A stretch of DNA of 56,619 nt from Spartobacteria bacterium (GTDB lineage Bacteria > Verrucomicrobiota > Verrucomicrobiia > Chthoniobacterales > UBA10450): positions 1-56,619 of the forward strand of contig PNAA01000040.1 of assembly GCA_003169975.1 (NCBI GenBank), in the 5' to 3' direction. Below the pieces are notes generated by a model, which did not search any database, had not been told where the DNA came from, and saw only the letters and a program-made list of their open reading frames with translations. Position numbers and translations under genes: made by a program. This document shows, in pieces, positions 25,503 through 36,845 of the stretch; positions within the stretch are counted from its first letter, which is position 1, and every line of letters begins with the position of its first letter.

Positions 25503-26048
25503 GTGCGAGCGAAGCGCCTTTTCGTTAGTCTCGCGCTGCCGGAATCGGTCGCGCAGCTTCTCGTTAGGCTGAATCCGCACCGACGCGGAGTCCGCTGGCT
25601 GAGCGCGGAGCAAATCCACCTGACGCTCGGCTTTCTGGGCGACGTGGCCGCCGACGCGGAGGAAAAACTGCGCACGCAGTTGAGCGTCATCCGCTTTGCC
25701 GCTTTTTTTCTTCCGGTTCGCGGTCTGGGCGTTTTTCCGGGGAAAGGCCGCCCGAAAATCATCTGGATTGGGGTCGGCGCCGGGCATCCGCATCTCTTCC
25801 AACTGCACAAGAGAGTCGCGGACGCGGCGCTGGCGGCCGGACTCGAAGCTGATCTTAGTCCCTGGCATCCGCACATCACGCTGGCCCGTTGCCAGGACGT
25901 TTCGGCAGAGTCGATTCGTCCGTTTCTCCGCGCGCAGGCCGACTTCGACGCCGGTCTTGTGCGGATCGATTCGTTTCAGTTGAAATCCAGCCTGCTCCTG
26001 GCGTCCGGCTCGATTCACACGACGGAGCTGGCGGTGCCGGCGTTGTAG
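25503..26048 (+). CDS. thpR: RNA 2',3'-cyclic phosphodiesterase (LigT/ThpR)
   Basis: About 181 residues from the GTG at 25503 (VRAKRLFVSLALPESVA), preceded by a G-rich stretch; the frame also extends upstream. It has the two HxTx motifs of the 2H phosphoesterase fold, IHLTLGFLGD and HPHITLARC, spaced as in ThpR. Such enzymes hydrolyse 2',3'-cyclic phosphate ends of RNA and ligate tRNA halves in vitro. The stop TAG is part of the TGTAG foot of the next REP-like element. Confidence 0.92.
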   Translation: MRAKRLFVSLALPESVAQLLVRLNPHRRGVRWLSAEQIHLTLGFLGDVAADAEEKLRTQLSVIRFAAFFLPVRGLGVFPGKGRPKIIWIGVGAGHPHLFQLHKRVADAALAAGLEADLSPWHPHITLARCQDVSAESIRPFLRAQADFDAGLVRIDSFQLKSSLLLASGSIHTTELAVPAL

Positions 26049-26147
26049 ACGCTTCGCTGTGCGAAGCGCGCGGCGCGGCGCCGCTCGCTCTCCCTCCCTC
26101 TTTTCTGCCGCACGCACACCCGCGCTTCGCACAGCGAAGCGTCTACA
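26044..26147. repeat. REP-like inverted hairpin pair (copy 2)
   Basis: TGTAG-A-CGCTTCGC-TGT-GCGAAGCG at the left, and the same sequence on the minus strand at the right, around a 50-bp spacer. The left foot provides the thpR stop codon (TTG TAG). The right foot lies 36 bp before the amidohydrolase start. Confidence 0.85.
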
Positions 26148-27600: not shown

Positions 27601-28344
27601 ATGAGATTCGAGAATCAGGTCGCAGTCGTCACCGGAGCGGGGCGGGGAATCGGCCATGCCATCGCCGTTCGTCTGGCCAGCGAAGGCGCGCGCGTTGCCT
27701 CCGTCAGCCGGAGCGAGGCGAATGCGCAGCGGACCGCCGATGAGATCAACGCCGCCCACGCTGGTGCGGCGAAGGCGTACGCGGTCGATGTTGCCGATCA
27801 CTCCGCCGTGCAGGCGACCGCGGCGCGCATTCTCGAGGACTTCGGGCGCATCGATATCCTGATTAACAACGCTGGGGTGACGCGCGACGGCCTGAGCATG
27901 CGAATGTCGATCGAAGATTGGGAAACCGTCATCGACACAAACTTGAAGGGCGCGTTCAGTTTCACCCAGGCGGTCATGCGTTCGATGATTAAGGAGCGCA
28001 GCGGGCGGATCATCAACATCAGCTCGATCAGCGGCCTGACGGGCAACGCCGGGCAGGCGAATTACGCGGCGAGCAAAGCCGGGCTGATCGGCCTAACGAA
28101 ATCGCTGGCCCGCGAGCTGGCCAGCCGCGGCATCACGGTGAACGCCGTCGCGCCCGGCTTCATCGTGACCGACATGACCGACGTCCTGCCGGAGCAGGTG
28201 AAGGAAGCCATCCTGGCGAAAATCCCGCTCGGGAAATTCGGCGAAGGTGAAGACATCGCCGCGGCGGTCGCGTTCCTCGCCGCGCCGGAAGCGAAGTACA
28301 TCACCGGCCAGGTGCTGGCGGTCGATGGCGGGATGGTGATGTAG
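27601..28344 (+). CDS. fabG: 3-oxoacyl-[acyl-carrier-protein] reductase
   Basis: 247 residues, the normal FabG length. Motifs: VAVVTGAGRGIGHAIAVRLA (NADPH site), DILINNAGVTRDGLSMRM, GRIINISSISGLTGNAGQAN with the catalytic Ser, YAASKAGLIGLTKSLAREL (Tyr-x3-Lys), VNAVAPGFIVTDMTD and the C-terminal YITGQVLAVDGGMVM. It reduces 3-oxoacyl-ACP in fatty-acid synthesis. No other fab gene is next to it, so a role as a general reductase is possible. The TAG stop is followed, in frame, by CTG TAG from the next REP-like element. Confidence 0.92.
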   Translation: MRFENQVAVVTGAGRGIGHAIAVRLASEGARVASVSRSEANAQRTADEINAAHAGAAKAYAVDVADHSAVQATAARILEDFGRIDILINNAGVTRDGLSMRMSIEDWETVIDTNLKGAFSFTQAVMRSMIKERSGRIINISSISGLTGNAGQANYAASKAGLIGLTKSLARELASRGITVNAVAPGFIVTDMTDVLPEQVKEAILAKIPLGKFGEGEDIAAAVAFLAAPEAKYITGQVLAVDGGMVM

Positions 28345-28345
28345 C

Positions 28346-28446
28346 TGTAGACGCTTCGCTCTGTGAAGCGCGGGAGAAATGCCTGCTGCTTCCGCGACGC
28401 CTCGTCGCGAGCCGAGACCCGCGCTTCGCAGAGCGAAGCGTCTACA
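28346..28446. repeat. REP-like inverted hairpin pair (copy 3)
   Basis: TGTAG-A-CGCTTCGC-TCT-GTGAAGCG at the left and TGTAG-A-CGCTTCGC-TCT-GCGAAGCG on the minus strand at the right. It sits directly after fabG; its foot TAG is a second in-frame stop one codon after the fabG stop. Confidence 0.85.
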
Positions 28447-28484
28447 AGCGAGCACCAAATCTGCTTCTCAAAGACTAGCTCTCA

Positions 28485-29084
28485 GTGAAATCCATCTCAT
28501 TTATCGCTCTGGTCGTTGCGGCCTGGTTCGTCTATGGGCGGATCAACGCCCCGCTCACCTATCCACCCGGCGTCCTCATTGCCAGCGAACCACTGCAGAC
28601 GGATGCCACCCCTAACGACACCCCATTCGAGGATGGAAAGTTTCATCTCAAGCCCCTGGCCCATTTCGCGATCGACGCGCGGGTCCTGCATCAAAAAATC
28701 TATCGCTACGATCGCCAGGCGGCCCTCGTGCCGGTGGATCTCGCGGTCGGCTGGGGACCGATGTCAGACCAGGCAGTGCTCAATCAACTGGAGATCAGCC
28801 AAAGCGCGCGTTTTTTCTGGTATCAGTGGCAGCACCAGCCGCCGATCGCGCCCGAAGAGATTATCTCGCACGCGACCAACCTGCATCTGATCCCGTCGAG
28901 CAAAGCGTTGGAGTCCCAATGCAAATCGCTCCATGCCGGTGAGCTGATTCACCTCTCCGGCTTGCTCGTGGAAGCAACCGGGCCGGACATCGGCACCTGG
29001 CGCAGCTCGCTCACTCGTACCGATACGGGGAACGGCGCCTGCGAGCTGGTCTGGGTCGAGGAGATTCACAAGCTGGCGCGCTAA
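28485..29084 (+). CDS. Conserved membrane-anchored hypothetical protein
   Basis: 199 residues from a GTG start (KSISFIALVVAAWFVYGRIN is the anchor). The soluble part has well-conserved-looking blocks: FHLKPLAHFAIDARVLHQKI, PVDLAVGWGPMSDQAVLNQL, ISQSARFFWYQW, ISHATNLHLIPSS, LHAGELIHLSGLLVEA and WRSSLTRTDTGNGACELVWV. I recall similar uncharacterised proteins in other bacteria but know no function. It lies between two REP-like elements, so it is likely transcribed alone. Confidence 0.75.
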   Translation: MKSISFIALVVAAWFVYGRINAPLTYPPGVLIASEPLQTDATPNDTPFEDGKFHLKPLAHFAIDARVLHQKIYRYDRQAALVPVDLAVGWGPMSDQAVLNQLEISQSARFFWYQWQHQPPIAPEEIISHATNLHLIPSSKALESQCKSLHAGELIHLSGLLVEATGPDIGTWRSSLTRTDTGNGACELVWVEEIHKLAR

Positions 29085-29087
29085 GGA

Positions 29088-29183
29088 TGTGGACGCTTCG
29101 CTCAGCGAAGCGTGGACGAAGCATCGCCGTCATCAAGCGAGGTCATCGCGCTGGGCCGCGCTTCGCTCAGCGAAGCGTCTACA
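29088..29183. repeat. REP-like inverted hairpin pair (copy 4)
   Basis: The left end has a changed foot (TGTGG) followed by A-CGCTTCGC-TCA-GCGAAGCG; the right end on the minus strand is TGTAG-A-CGCTTCGC-TGA-GCGAAGCG. It lies 3 bp past the stop of the hypothetical gene and 39 bp before msrA. The upstream gene uses its own TAA here, unlike the other copies. Confidence 0.85.
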
Positions 29184-30423: not shown

Positions 30424-31476
30424 ATGGCGGCGCGAACTGTCTTGGTCACCGGCTCGGCCGGGTTGATCGGCTCGGAAACGGTCAGACGTTTTGCGGGAGA
30501 GGGCTGCGCCATTGTCGGGATCGACAACGACATGCGGAAGCAATTCTTCGGCGCAGAAGCGTCCACCCGGAAAACGCGCGATGAGTTACTGGCCAGCGTG
30601 CCCAACTATCAGCATCACGAAATCGACATCCGCGATGCCGGCGCGGTGAATAATCTCTTTCAACAGCACGGGCGCGGGCTGGCGGCGATCGTGCATACCG
30701 CCGCGCAGCCGTCGCATGACTGGGCGGCGCGCGATCCGCAGATGGATTTCACGGTCAACGCCAACGGCACGCTCAACCTGCTCGAAGCGGCACGAAACTT
30801 TTGCCCGGAAACACCGTTCGTCTTCACCTCGACGAACAAAGTCTACGGCGATACGCCGAACCAACTGCCACTCCGCGAACTGCCCTTGCGCTGGGAGATC
30901 GAGCCCGGCCACGAATACGAGCCCGGCATCTCGGAGAGCATGAGCATCGACCAGACGAAGCACTCGCTCTTCGGCGCGTCGAAGCTCGCGGCCGACGTGC
31001 TCGTGCAGGAATACGGCCGTTATTTTGGCATGCCGACCGTCTGTTTTCGCGGGGGTTGCCTAACGGGTCCAGCGCACGCCGGCACGGAGCTGCATGGATT
31101 TCTCTCTTACCTGATGAAGTGCACGGTGAGCGGGCGGCCCTATCGCGTCTTCGGCTACAAGGGCAAGCAGGTGCGCGATAACATTCACAGCTTCGACCTG
31201 GTCGAGGCCTTCGCCGCGTTCGTTAGGGCACCGCGGTTGGCGGAGGTTTACAACATCGGCGGGAGCCGCCACTGCCATTGCTCGATGCTGGAGGCGATCG
31301 AGCTCTGCGAGGAAATCAGCGAGCGCAAACTCTCCTGGGAGTACGTCGAAGACCACCGGATCGGCGACCACATCTGGTGGATCAGCGACGTGCGCAAATT
31401 CCAGGAGCATTATCCCGAATGGAAGTTCCGTTACGGTCTGCGCGAAATCCTCGCGGAGATCCACGCCGCATTGTAG
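30424..31476 (+). CDS. NAD-dependent sugar epimerase/dehydratase (CDP-paratose epimerase-like)
   Basis: 350 residues. The extended-SDR NAD site is [19 protein letters not shown]. It continues with [40 protein letters not shown] and [20 protein letters not shown]; the last replaces the usual catalytic Tyr of YxxxK with Phe (FGASK). [17 protein letters not shown] and EVYNIGG are also typical. The closest relatives I can name are CDP-tyvelose/paratose 2-epimerases of nucleotide-sugar metabolism. The missing Tyr, if real, argues for a different mechanism. The stop TAG belongs to a REP-like hairpin. Confidence 0.85.
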
Positions 31477-31500
31477 ACGCTTTGCTTTGCGAAGCGGGGT
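31472..31500 (+). repeat. Solo REP-like hairpin
   Basis: TGTAG-A-CGCTTTGC-TTT-GCGAAGCG, one half only; no inverted partner was seen downstream. The foot TAG is the stop codon of the epimerase gene. Confidence 0.75.
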
Positions 31501-34238: not shown

Positions 34239-36845
34239 ATGTTTACGACGCCTGAGGTTTTTCTTCTTCTTGGCCTGGGTCTCGTTCTGCTCCTGCTGCC
34301 GCTCATTCGCCTCGGAGAGTTGCGTCGGACGATCGACACGCTGACCGAACGGATCGCAGTTCTTGAGCGAAAATTGCAGCGCAGCGAGACTCCGCCAGTT
34401 CCGGAGAAGGCGGCAATTCCGCCGTCGCCATTGCTGGCGCCGCGGACGGACCTGCTTTCGCAGGTCCAGGACGAACGGAAGCTCGTCCCTCCGGGCGCGG
34501 GCAAGCCGCCACCGCTGCCTGTGCCGCCGCCACTGCCGGTTCCCATCCCGGCGACGCCATTCAATTGGGAAGCCTTCATGGGAGTAAAGTTGTTTGCCTG
34601 GTTAGGCGGGCTCGCGCTTTTTCTGGGCGTCGGTTTCATGGTCAAGTATTCCTTCGAAAACAACCTCATCACGCCGCTCGGCCGGCTTGCGATTGGTGGA
34701 GTCGTCGGATCCGGTTTGATTGCGACCGGGTGGTGGCTGGCGCGCGGCCGCTACCGGGCCACGGCCCAAAGTCTTTGCGCCACCGGCATCGTCATTCTCT
34801 ACGCCAACCTTTTTGCGGCGCATTCCTTCTACGGGTTGATTTCCCTAACGACGGCGTTCTTCGCCATGTCCGCGGTCACGCTCTTTTCGTTCATCCTCGC
34901 GGTCAATCTCAGTGCGCAGGTCATCGTGATTCTCGGATTGTTAGGCGGTTTCCTTACGCCGGCGCTGCTCCCGAGCGGCGCGGACAACGCGCCTGCGCTC
35001 TTTCTCTACATCGGATTGCTCGACCTCGGGGTGGCAGCGGTCGCGCTGCGCAAACGCTGGCATTACCTGGTTCTGCTCGCGGCCATCGGGACGGCTCTGA
35101 CTCAACTGGGCTGGGCCATCCAGTTTTTCAACGCCGCCAGGGGCGGTCGCGCATTTTGGATCTTTCTCGTTTTTGAAGCGCTCTTTCTCGCGTTCTACTT
35201 CTGGAGACGTTTCGCTCTGCGAAGCGCGGGGATCGACGTCGATCGTCAGCAGGACCTTCCCGGTAGACATCCGCAGACTCACCCTTCGCATAGCGAAGCG
35301 GCTACAACGGCGGCCGCGGCTGTCGCCGGGCTGACCGCGCTCGGATTCGGTTTCTGGCTCTCGGCCGTTCCCGCGCTCGCGCGTCAGCCGCTTTTTTTCT
35401 TCAGTTTTGTATTTCTGGCGGACGCCGGTTTGCTTGCGCTCCCAGTAATCGGCCGCGCGCATCGGGGGATCGCGCTCGGCGCCGGCGGCCTAACGTTCAT
35501 TCTCGTGGCGGAATGGATCGGATTGTTTGCCTCCCATGCGCCGCTCAGCGTGGCCCTGGCCGCGATCGTTATTTTCGCGCTCCTGCACGCTGCGACCGTT
35601 CCGGCGTCGGCTTGGCGGCCGGGCGTGCTGCCCTTCACCGCCGCCGGCACGGTGACGCCTTTCCTGCTCCTGATTATTTTGCTCGAACGCGTTGCGCTCT
35701 GGAATCCGACGCCGGTTTTTGGCGTCGCGCTCATTCTCGCCGGGATCCTGTTGGCCGCCGCGATCATTAAGCGCGCGGACTGGCTCGCGCTTTCCGCCCT
35801 GCTGGGCGTCGGTCTGGTGGAGCTGACCTGGCAGGGCTTGCGGTTTTCGAATGCGCAGTCGATCCCTGCGCTCGTGTGCTACGGACTGTTTCTGATTTGC
35901 TTTGTCGCCTTCCCATTCTGCTCGGCGCAAAAGGAGAAGACGTGGTCATGGGTGATCAGCGCCTTGGCCCAGGCGCTTCAGTTCTGGCTGTTTTATCGCG
36001 TCATCTCGTCCGCCTTCCCTAACGACTGGATGGGGCTGCTGCCGGCGGCCTTCATCGTTCCGGCCGCGCTCGGCGTGGTCGCGTTGCTGAAGGTTTATCA
36101 AGCCAATCCCGCGAACGGAGATGCCCGGCTCGCCTGGCAGGGTGGGGCGCTCTTGCTTTTCGTTAGTCTGATTTTCCCGCTCCAGTTTCATCACGAATGG
36201 ATCACCCTCGGCTGGGCGCTGGAAGGTTTCGCTCTCCTCTGGCTTTTCCATCGGATCCCGCATCGCGGCCTGCGCCTGGTCGGTGTCGTCCTGCTCGGCG
36301 CCGCTTTTGCCCGGCTCGCGCTCAATCCGGCGGTCTTCGAGTATCACAAGCGGAGCGCGACTCACCTTTGGAATTGGTATCTCTACACCTACGGGATCAC
36401 GACCGTCTGTTTGCTTGGCGGCGCCCGTCTTTTTGGTCGCCCGCCGGAAAATTCCATCGAGCGCGCCGGGCCGCCCCTCCTCGGCTCGTTAGGCACGATT
36501 CTCGCCTTTCTTCTCCTCAACATCGAGATCGCGGATTATTTTTCGATCGGCCCGACGCTGACTTTTTCTTTCAGCGGCAATTTCGCCCGCGACATGAGCT
36601 ATTCGATCGCGTGGGCGCTCTTCGCGCTCGGCCTCATCCTGGTCGGCATGCGGATCAAGCAACGCGCGGCCCGCTATGCCGGCGTCGCGTTGCTCGGCGT
36701 GACCCTGGCCAAACTGTTCCTGCACGACCTGAGCGATCTGGACGAGCTTTACCGAATCGGCGCTTTCGTTAGCGTGGCGTTGATTTTGATTGCGGCCTCT
36801 TTTATCTACCAGCGCTTTCTTGTTCCCGAGCGAGCGGCAATATAA
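34239..36845 (+). CDS. DUF2339 polytopic membrane protein with an in-frame REP-like insert
   Basis: 868 residues. A single N-terminal helix and a coiled-coil-like region (LRRTIDTLTERIAVLERKLQ) precede a Pro-rich linker. Over twenty hydrophobic helices follow from the block WEAFMGVKLFAWLGGLALFL, the DUF2339 signature, through FFVKYSFENN-like turns to the C-terminus. The function of the family is unknown. At residues about 321-357 the DNA is a REP-like inverted pair (35202-35307). The resulting protein segment (RRFALRSAGIDVDRQQDLPG onward) is a hydrophilic loop unlike the family. The gene stays open through it. Confidence 0.85.
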   Translation: MFTTPEVFLLLGLGLVLLLLPLIRLGELRRTIDTLTERIAVLERKLQRSETPPVPEKAAIPPSPLLAPRTDLLSQVQDERKLVPPGAGKPPPLPVPPPLPVPIPATPFNWEAFMGVKLFAWLGGLALFLGVGFMVKYSFENNLITPLGRLAIGGVVGSGLIATGWWLARGRYRATAQSLCATGIVILYANLFAAHSFYGLISLTTAFFAMSAVTLFSFILAVNLSAQVIVILGLLGGFLTPALLPSGADNAPALFLYIGLLDLGVAAVALRKRWHYLVLLAAIGTALTQLGWAIQFFNAARGGRAFWIFLVFEALFLAFYFWRRFALRSAGIDVDRQQDLPGRHPQTHPSHSEAATTAAAAVAGLTALGFGFWLSAVPALARQPLFFFSFVFLADAGLLALPVIGRAHRGIALGAGGLTFILVAEWIGLFASHAPLSVALAAIVIFALLHAATVPASAWRPGVLPFTAAGTVTPFLLLIILLERVALWNPTPVFGVALILAGILLAAAIIKRADWLALSALLGVGLVELTWQGLRFSNAQSIPALVCYGLFLICFVAFPFCSAQKEKTWSWVISALAQALQFWLFYRVISSAFPNDWMGLLPAAFIVPAALGVVALLKVYQANPANGDARLAWQGGALLLFVSLIFPLQFHHEWITLGWALEGFALLWLFHRIPHRGLRLVGVVLLGAAFARLALNPAVFEYHKRSATHLWNWYLYTYGITTVCLLGGARLFGRPPENSIERAGPPLLGSLGTILAFLLLNIEIADYFSIGPTLTFSFSGNFARDMSYSIAWALFALGLILVGMRIKQRAARYAGVALLGVTLAKLFLHDLSDLDELYRIGAFVSVALILIAASFIYQRFLVPERAAI
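35202..35307. repeat. REP-like inverted hairpin pair inside the DUF2339 gene (copy 5)
   Basis: The left half is TGGAG-A-CGTTTCGC-TCT-GCGAAGCG, with a GGAG variant foot; the right half on the minus strand is TGTAG-C-CGCTTCGC-TAT-GCGAAGGG. It is about 105 bp long and read in frame without a stop. Confidence 0.85.

Follow-up and report, generated by a model that had tools for sequence, protein, structure and literature searches.

In a soil bacterium, a gene for a membrane protein contains a palindromic repeat that leaves the reading frame unbroken. This raises the question of how the repeat came to be there and whether the protein tolerates it or has gained a role from it. The gene encodes a DUF2339 protein (34239-36845, + strand; 868 aa; Pfam PF10101, E 3.7e-79) and lies in a window of 56,619 nt, the whole stretch of DNA analysed, which is contig C59 of a source genome of 4.47 Mb and 97% completeness. 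The protein shares 41-71% identity with 51 homologues. The nearest named relatives of the gene are from Chthoniobacterales MAGs (Verrucomicrobiota), and those relatives that can be named are mostly MAGs.

The element at 35202-35306 (+ strand) consists of two GTAG-type REP units in inverted orientation (REPIN-like) and leaves the DUF2339 gene, in whose frame it lies, intact. A preliminary description had recognised it as a REP-like pair read in frame without a stop, and its coordinates proved exact to the nucleotide. The 105 nt run from TGGAGACG (35202) to GGCTACA (35306) and form exactly 35 stop-free codons (322-356, translated WRRFALRSAGIDVDRQQDLPGRHPQTHPSHSEAAT), beginning directly after TTC TAC TTC and ending directly before ACG GCG GCC GCG. 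Its two arms (35202-35224 and 35284-35306) are 23 nt each and 83% complementary. The left unit, TGGAGACGTTTCGCTCTGCGAAGCGCGGG (35202-35230, + strand, 29 nt), matches 28446-28418 at 93% (E 3e-7); its tag, GGAG, is one base from GTAG, the tag of the right unit. The right unit, TGTAGCCGCTTCGCTATGCGAAG(GGT), is on the minus strand at 35281-35306. Its first 23 nt are identical to genomic copies at C23:29286 and C23:29549, and together with its flank it matches 26066-26036 over 31 nt at 90% (E 1e-6). The spacer between the units (35231-35280, + strand) contains a 14-nt perfect palindrome, GATCGACGTCGATC (35231-35244; a self-match). At the RNA level, the predicted structure of the element had a z score of -2.1, with 3 of 200 shuffles equally stable, and RNA structure as a selected feature is not needed to account for it.

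Both units belong to a family that is repeated through the source genome (consensus TGTAG[AC]CGCTTCGCNNNGCGAAGCG). The window has 22 matches to the core motif where shuffled sequence gives an expectation of 2.8, and none of 100 shuffles reached 22. A 25-mer unit pattern allowing up to three mismatches found 152 genome copies, whereas the reversed pattern, used as a control, found none. When the tag base was left free and a single mismatch allowed, the source genome had 100 copies, the four genomes of its genus 2-24 and one genome from a different genus 25. Inverted pairs made up 54 of 64 sampled sites, with lengths of 79-119 nt (median 96, against 105 for the DUF2339 copy) and spacers mostly unrelated to one another. 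The sampled sites, on which the intragenic count rests, were picked as close consensus matches and are biased accordingly; 62 of the 64 lay outside strong ORFs, the exceptions being the DUF2339 gene and a PbpC-like gene. Within the window, further pairs of the family occur outside strong ORFs at 26044-26147, between an ORF ending at 28344 and one starting at 28485 (28346-28447), and directly after an ORF ending at 29084 (29088-29183). A single unit at 31472-31497 (+ strand) supplies, with its TAG, the stop codon of ORF 30424-31476.

A RAYT ORF elsewhere in the source genome (G000:C18:57047-57367; 157 aa, DHIH motif, Y1_Tnp E 1.8e-7) has REP pairs on both sides, which is the usual REPtron arrangement. 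This linkage suggests that the REP family was spread by a RAYT, an HUH transposase, and most likely by this one. Several ORFs of the source genome (L061, L062, L063, L065 and L066) represent a second, longer type of Y1 transposase, of about 320-390 aa; beside them a scan found essentially no GTAG REPs of the window type.

We compared the element's site with that in 73 other DUF2339 homologues, of which 70 were scored, as three did not reach it. The REP-encoded loop was absent from all 70, close relatives included, and a shared loop in homologues, which would have spoken against the preliminary description, was thus not seen. Between fixed flanks there were 22-30 residues in 69 homologues, 40 in the remaining one and 48 in the source genome. 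Alignments to the proteins of relatives G003 and G005 break at residue 324 and restart at 355-357, the native loops of the four nearest relatives are shorter, and at the element's position relatives have about 10-17 residues of native loop. The net gain is thus 23 residues, against an earlier figure of about 36. Because 35 codons were inserted and only 23 residues gained, about 12 native loop residues are missing, presumably lost at or after insertion. A clean insertion without loss would have added 35 residues and is rejected on length; the clean empty site for which a check had been proposed was accordingly not found. Even the nearest homologues reach no more than about 70-80% identity, and the exact pre-insertion allele is absent among them.

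The site itself offers an explanation for the survival of the gene. In an AF2 model (52 window and relative proteins; pLDDT 82.8), residues 330-350 belong to a loop that joins helices 299-329 and 351-375, and confidence is lower within the REP-encoded loop. These are predicted to be transmembrane helices, and the modelled position fits tolerance at the membrane surface. In the mechanism we propose, a member of the GTAG-type REP-pair family would have entered a hydrophilic inter-helix loop of DUF2339 in the source lineage, and the element would now be translated as an additional loop segment. Three features would have let the protein survive: two of the element's three forward frames are stop-free, the length changed by a net multiple of three, and the loop can accommodate extra length. 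Among the sampled REP pairs, 85% were open in frame 0 (counted from the pair start) and 77% in frame 1, but 2% in frame 2, where GTAG yields TAG. With two of three frames open in most pairs, an intact frame therefore requires only a fitting length, and the idea that the REP is specially designed for coding was rejected. It is highly probable, in our judgement, that a REP pair was inserted into a tolerant DUF2339 loop with loss of native residues, and that it is tolerated rather than adaptive.

The other intragenic pair lies in the PbpC-like gene of the source genome (L002:1496-1586, residues 499-529), whose product has transglycosylase, transpeptidase and BiPBP_C domains. This pair is also in frame, and it shares its reading frame with the DUF2339 pair ([CW][SR]RFA[VL]RSAG). 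At the same PbpC site, G003, of the same genus, has a different in-frame palindrome (L308), with the G003 match reported to contain one stop.

Transposase domains were also found within genes. A Y1_Tnp search of the source genome gave two matches within long ORFs, one in RecG (909 aa; L069:238-2964, G000:C5) with 27-nt perfect inverted-repeat arms and one in CarB (1380 aa; L070:1-3159, G000:C23) with 58-nt inverted-repeat arms. Across 41 genomes of the family, many Y1 matches fell in frames of 700-1500 aa. All 22 ORFs examined (20 from relatives and these two) were host enzymes with an internal match to NF047646 REP_Tyr_transpos: CarB in eight cases, MetH in six, RecG in four, AlaS in three and ValS in one. 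Another 18 nested ORFs were identified as AlaS, RecG or ThrS. The ORFs of relatives (L195-L214 and L275-L292) come from many families of the class and use recurrent sites. Among the 22 ORFs, long inverted repeats mark the insert ends in many, though not all. The nested domains matched NF047646 at 58-150 bits, only some exceeding the curated cut-off of 80.

The nested RAYTs were of two kinds, one aligned as A2 (MetH, AlaS, RecG) and a longer one as A3 (CarB, ValS). The HUH motif (HVH) was invariant in both, and the catalytic tyrosine was present in 10 of 11 A2 and 7 of 7 A3 domains. When 236 genomes of the class were scanned with A2, all 21 matches above 190 bits lay in frames of 730-1513 aa; at this threshold the A2-type clade was found only nested, and two further genomes from a scan of the phylum also had long frames. 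Relatives of A3 were nested in some cases and free in others. In a tree of 33 A2 domains, several forks of which were weak, MetH domains fell within the RecG group and ThrS domains with AlaS. Such neighbouring of domains from different host genes suggests movement between genes.

CarB provided the fullest series of states. The enzyme was found in 38 of 41 genomes, with a frame of about 1060-1130 aa without the insert and 1318-1388 aa with it (a few were cut by contig ends), and both forms were present within genera. A single CarB loop is empty in G022, G006 and G059, holds one in-frame palindrome in G010 (L295) and G060 (L297) and an in-frame palindrome pair in G020 (L299), and elsewhere holds in-frame RAYT elements. 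That sites of one type can receive both pairs like the DUF2339 one and whole RAYT elements is best supported by this series. A search for another, intact copy of the host enzyme found none for CarB in the 38 genomes; AlaS likewise had one locus in each of 14 genomes, apart from a fragment at a contig edge in G013.

In each of four close pairs of nested RAYTs tested, dN was far below dS (0.068/0.41, 0.13/2.4, 0.060/0.54 and 0.165/2.6, with dS near saturation in the second and fourth). In the CarB pair, the RAYT values (0.060/0.541) equalled the host values (0.065/0.539), which is what joint inheritance should produce. Among the NCBIfam matches listed for 40 nested RAYT ORFs there were host-enzyme and RAYT families but no intein family. 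Rfam gave no group I or II intron at five nested loci, by which RNA introns were rejected as an explanation there.

Several other accounts of the DUF2339 element can be weighed against these data. If the loop were ancestral or of low complexity, and its likeness to REP DNA accidental, this might explain why the RR after the helix, REP-coded in the source genome, is present in homologues too (FQRR, DRRI). Such an origin is nevertheless barely credible, given 29- and 31-nt matches at 90-93% to other copies (E 3e-7 and 1e-6), the inverted arrangement of the units and the lack of any such loop in the 70 homologues, by which an ancestral loop is rejected. The REP-encoded segment might instead have gained a role, for example as an interaction surface, and be maintained by selection. 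The DUF2339 frame is intact and the loop is basic and hydrophilic, lying in the model at the membrane surface between two helices, which speaks in favour of such a role. We nevertheless consider it improbable: the loop occurs in one genome only and in none of the 70 homologues, leaving no conservation; its arms have hardly diverged from other genomic copies, which suggests a recent arrival; and model confidence within it is low. Of the two outcomes put forward in the preliminary description, a tolerated and probably recent insertion remains the best reading, and we found no support for a gained role.

A further possibility concerns the choice of site, namely that the REP/RAYT elements of this lineage are targeted to, or survive best in, certain loops of large proteins, with the DUF2339 pair as one case. 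The empty sites, single palindromes, palindrome pair and RAYT-bearing elements of one CarB loop point in this direction, as do the PbpC pair with a different in-frame palindrome in the same place in G003 and the recurrence of RAYT domains at similar profile positions in AlaS, RecG and MetH. Yet the great majority of copies in the DUF2339 element's family are intergenic (62 of 64 sampled), and the 70 homologues show no repeated use of the DUF2339 site. We therefore regard a preference of this kind as possible but doubtful.

The DUF2339 pair is best read, then, as a tolerated insertion and as a further case of the already known in-frame GTAG REPs. Di Nocera et al. (2013, PMC3733652) reported such REPs from several species, most of them in the verrucomicrobium Opitutus terrae, with over half of the in-ORF inserts being dimers or groups coding for 20-30 residues. 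Their intragenic REPs and ours have in common the GTAG tag, the hairpin, in-frame dimers in ORFs, high copy number and a RAYT in the genome. The likeness is one of kind, and here the hosts are DUF2339 and a PbpC-like gene, with 35 codons and about 12 native residues missing in the former. Quentin et al. (2018, PMC6006769) described REPs in frame within tnpAREP genes of subclass 2.4, likewise read as a tolerated peripheral loop; there the host is the transposase itself, whereas here it is an unrelated membrane protein. In-frame GTAG REPs have thus been reported in other genera. The comparison drawn earlier with the Rickettsia palindromic elements is apt. Those elements (cited in PMC3733652) are in-frame palindromic repeats in ORFs that probably code for functional proteins, and they resemble the DUF2339 pair in being inserted in frame in an otherwise intact gene. 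The resemblance is one of arrangement, and unlike them the REP family of the DUF2339 element is mainly intergenic. REPINs, as outlined by Bertels and Rainey (2011, PMC3116915), also consist of two inverted REPs of about 100 nt in total in a genome with a RAYT; in distinction to that outline, the DUF2339 copy is translated within a gene.

The nested RAYTs have parallels of their own. They share with TIRtrons/TIRYT (PMC3733652) a TIR-flanked Y1 HUH transposase, and differ in lying in frame inside host enzymes, with which they would be translated. With inteins they share placement in conserved enzymes, without an intein family among the matches listed or an intron family at the five loci. No report of palindrome-flanked RAYTs in frame within enzymes was found in the literature, in which subscription journals were thinly covered. 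They may have been missed because the survey in PMC6006769 discarded Y1 proteins that were longer than expected, taking them for fusions or misannotations.

The palindromes of the nested RAYT elements differ from those of the DUF2339 REP family, and the link seen between the two is one of kind. They appear alike in that, in this lineage, both palindromes and RAYT elements occur in tolerant loops through which the host reading frame continues. We lean towards seeing the DUF2339 pair as the small, non-autonomous end of a gene-embedded REP/RAYT life in Verrucomicrobiota. Palindrome-flanked HUH transposases would exist as translated, non-spliced inserts in conserved, often essential enzymes (AlaS, ThrS, ValS, CarB, MetH and RecG), moving between few recurrent sites with their catalytic residues under purifying selection and leaving in-frame palindromes or pairs. 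Their placement would be intein-like without splicing, and they would persist because imprecise loss would kill the host gene.

By itself, the DUF2339 pair is one more well-documented in-frame REP insertion, for which some 70 homologues show the prior state of the loop. Its context outweighs it: RAYTs are described in the literature consulted as free-standing genes beside REPs, and here one clade was found only nested in enzymes, among them genes that the cell is expected to need, such as AlaS. If confirmed at the protein level, a nested transposase would borrow the transcription and translation of its host gene and resist deletion, and the hosts would provide a direct test of the tolerance of enzymes for whole-domain insertions.

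Some nested domains departed from the common form. In RecG of G024 (L214), serine replaces the catalytic tyrosine (FASILRNPW), and this RAYT may be inactive. Two hosts contained two RAYT domains each, namely AlaS of G150 (1398 aa; L279:3309-7502) and MetH of G008 (L212:3-3692), the first domain of the latter being cut by a contig edge.
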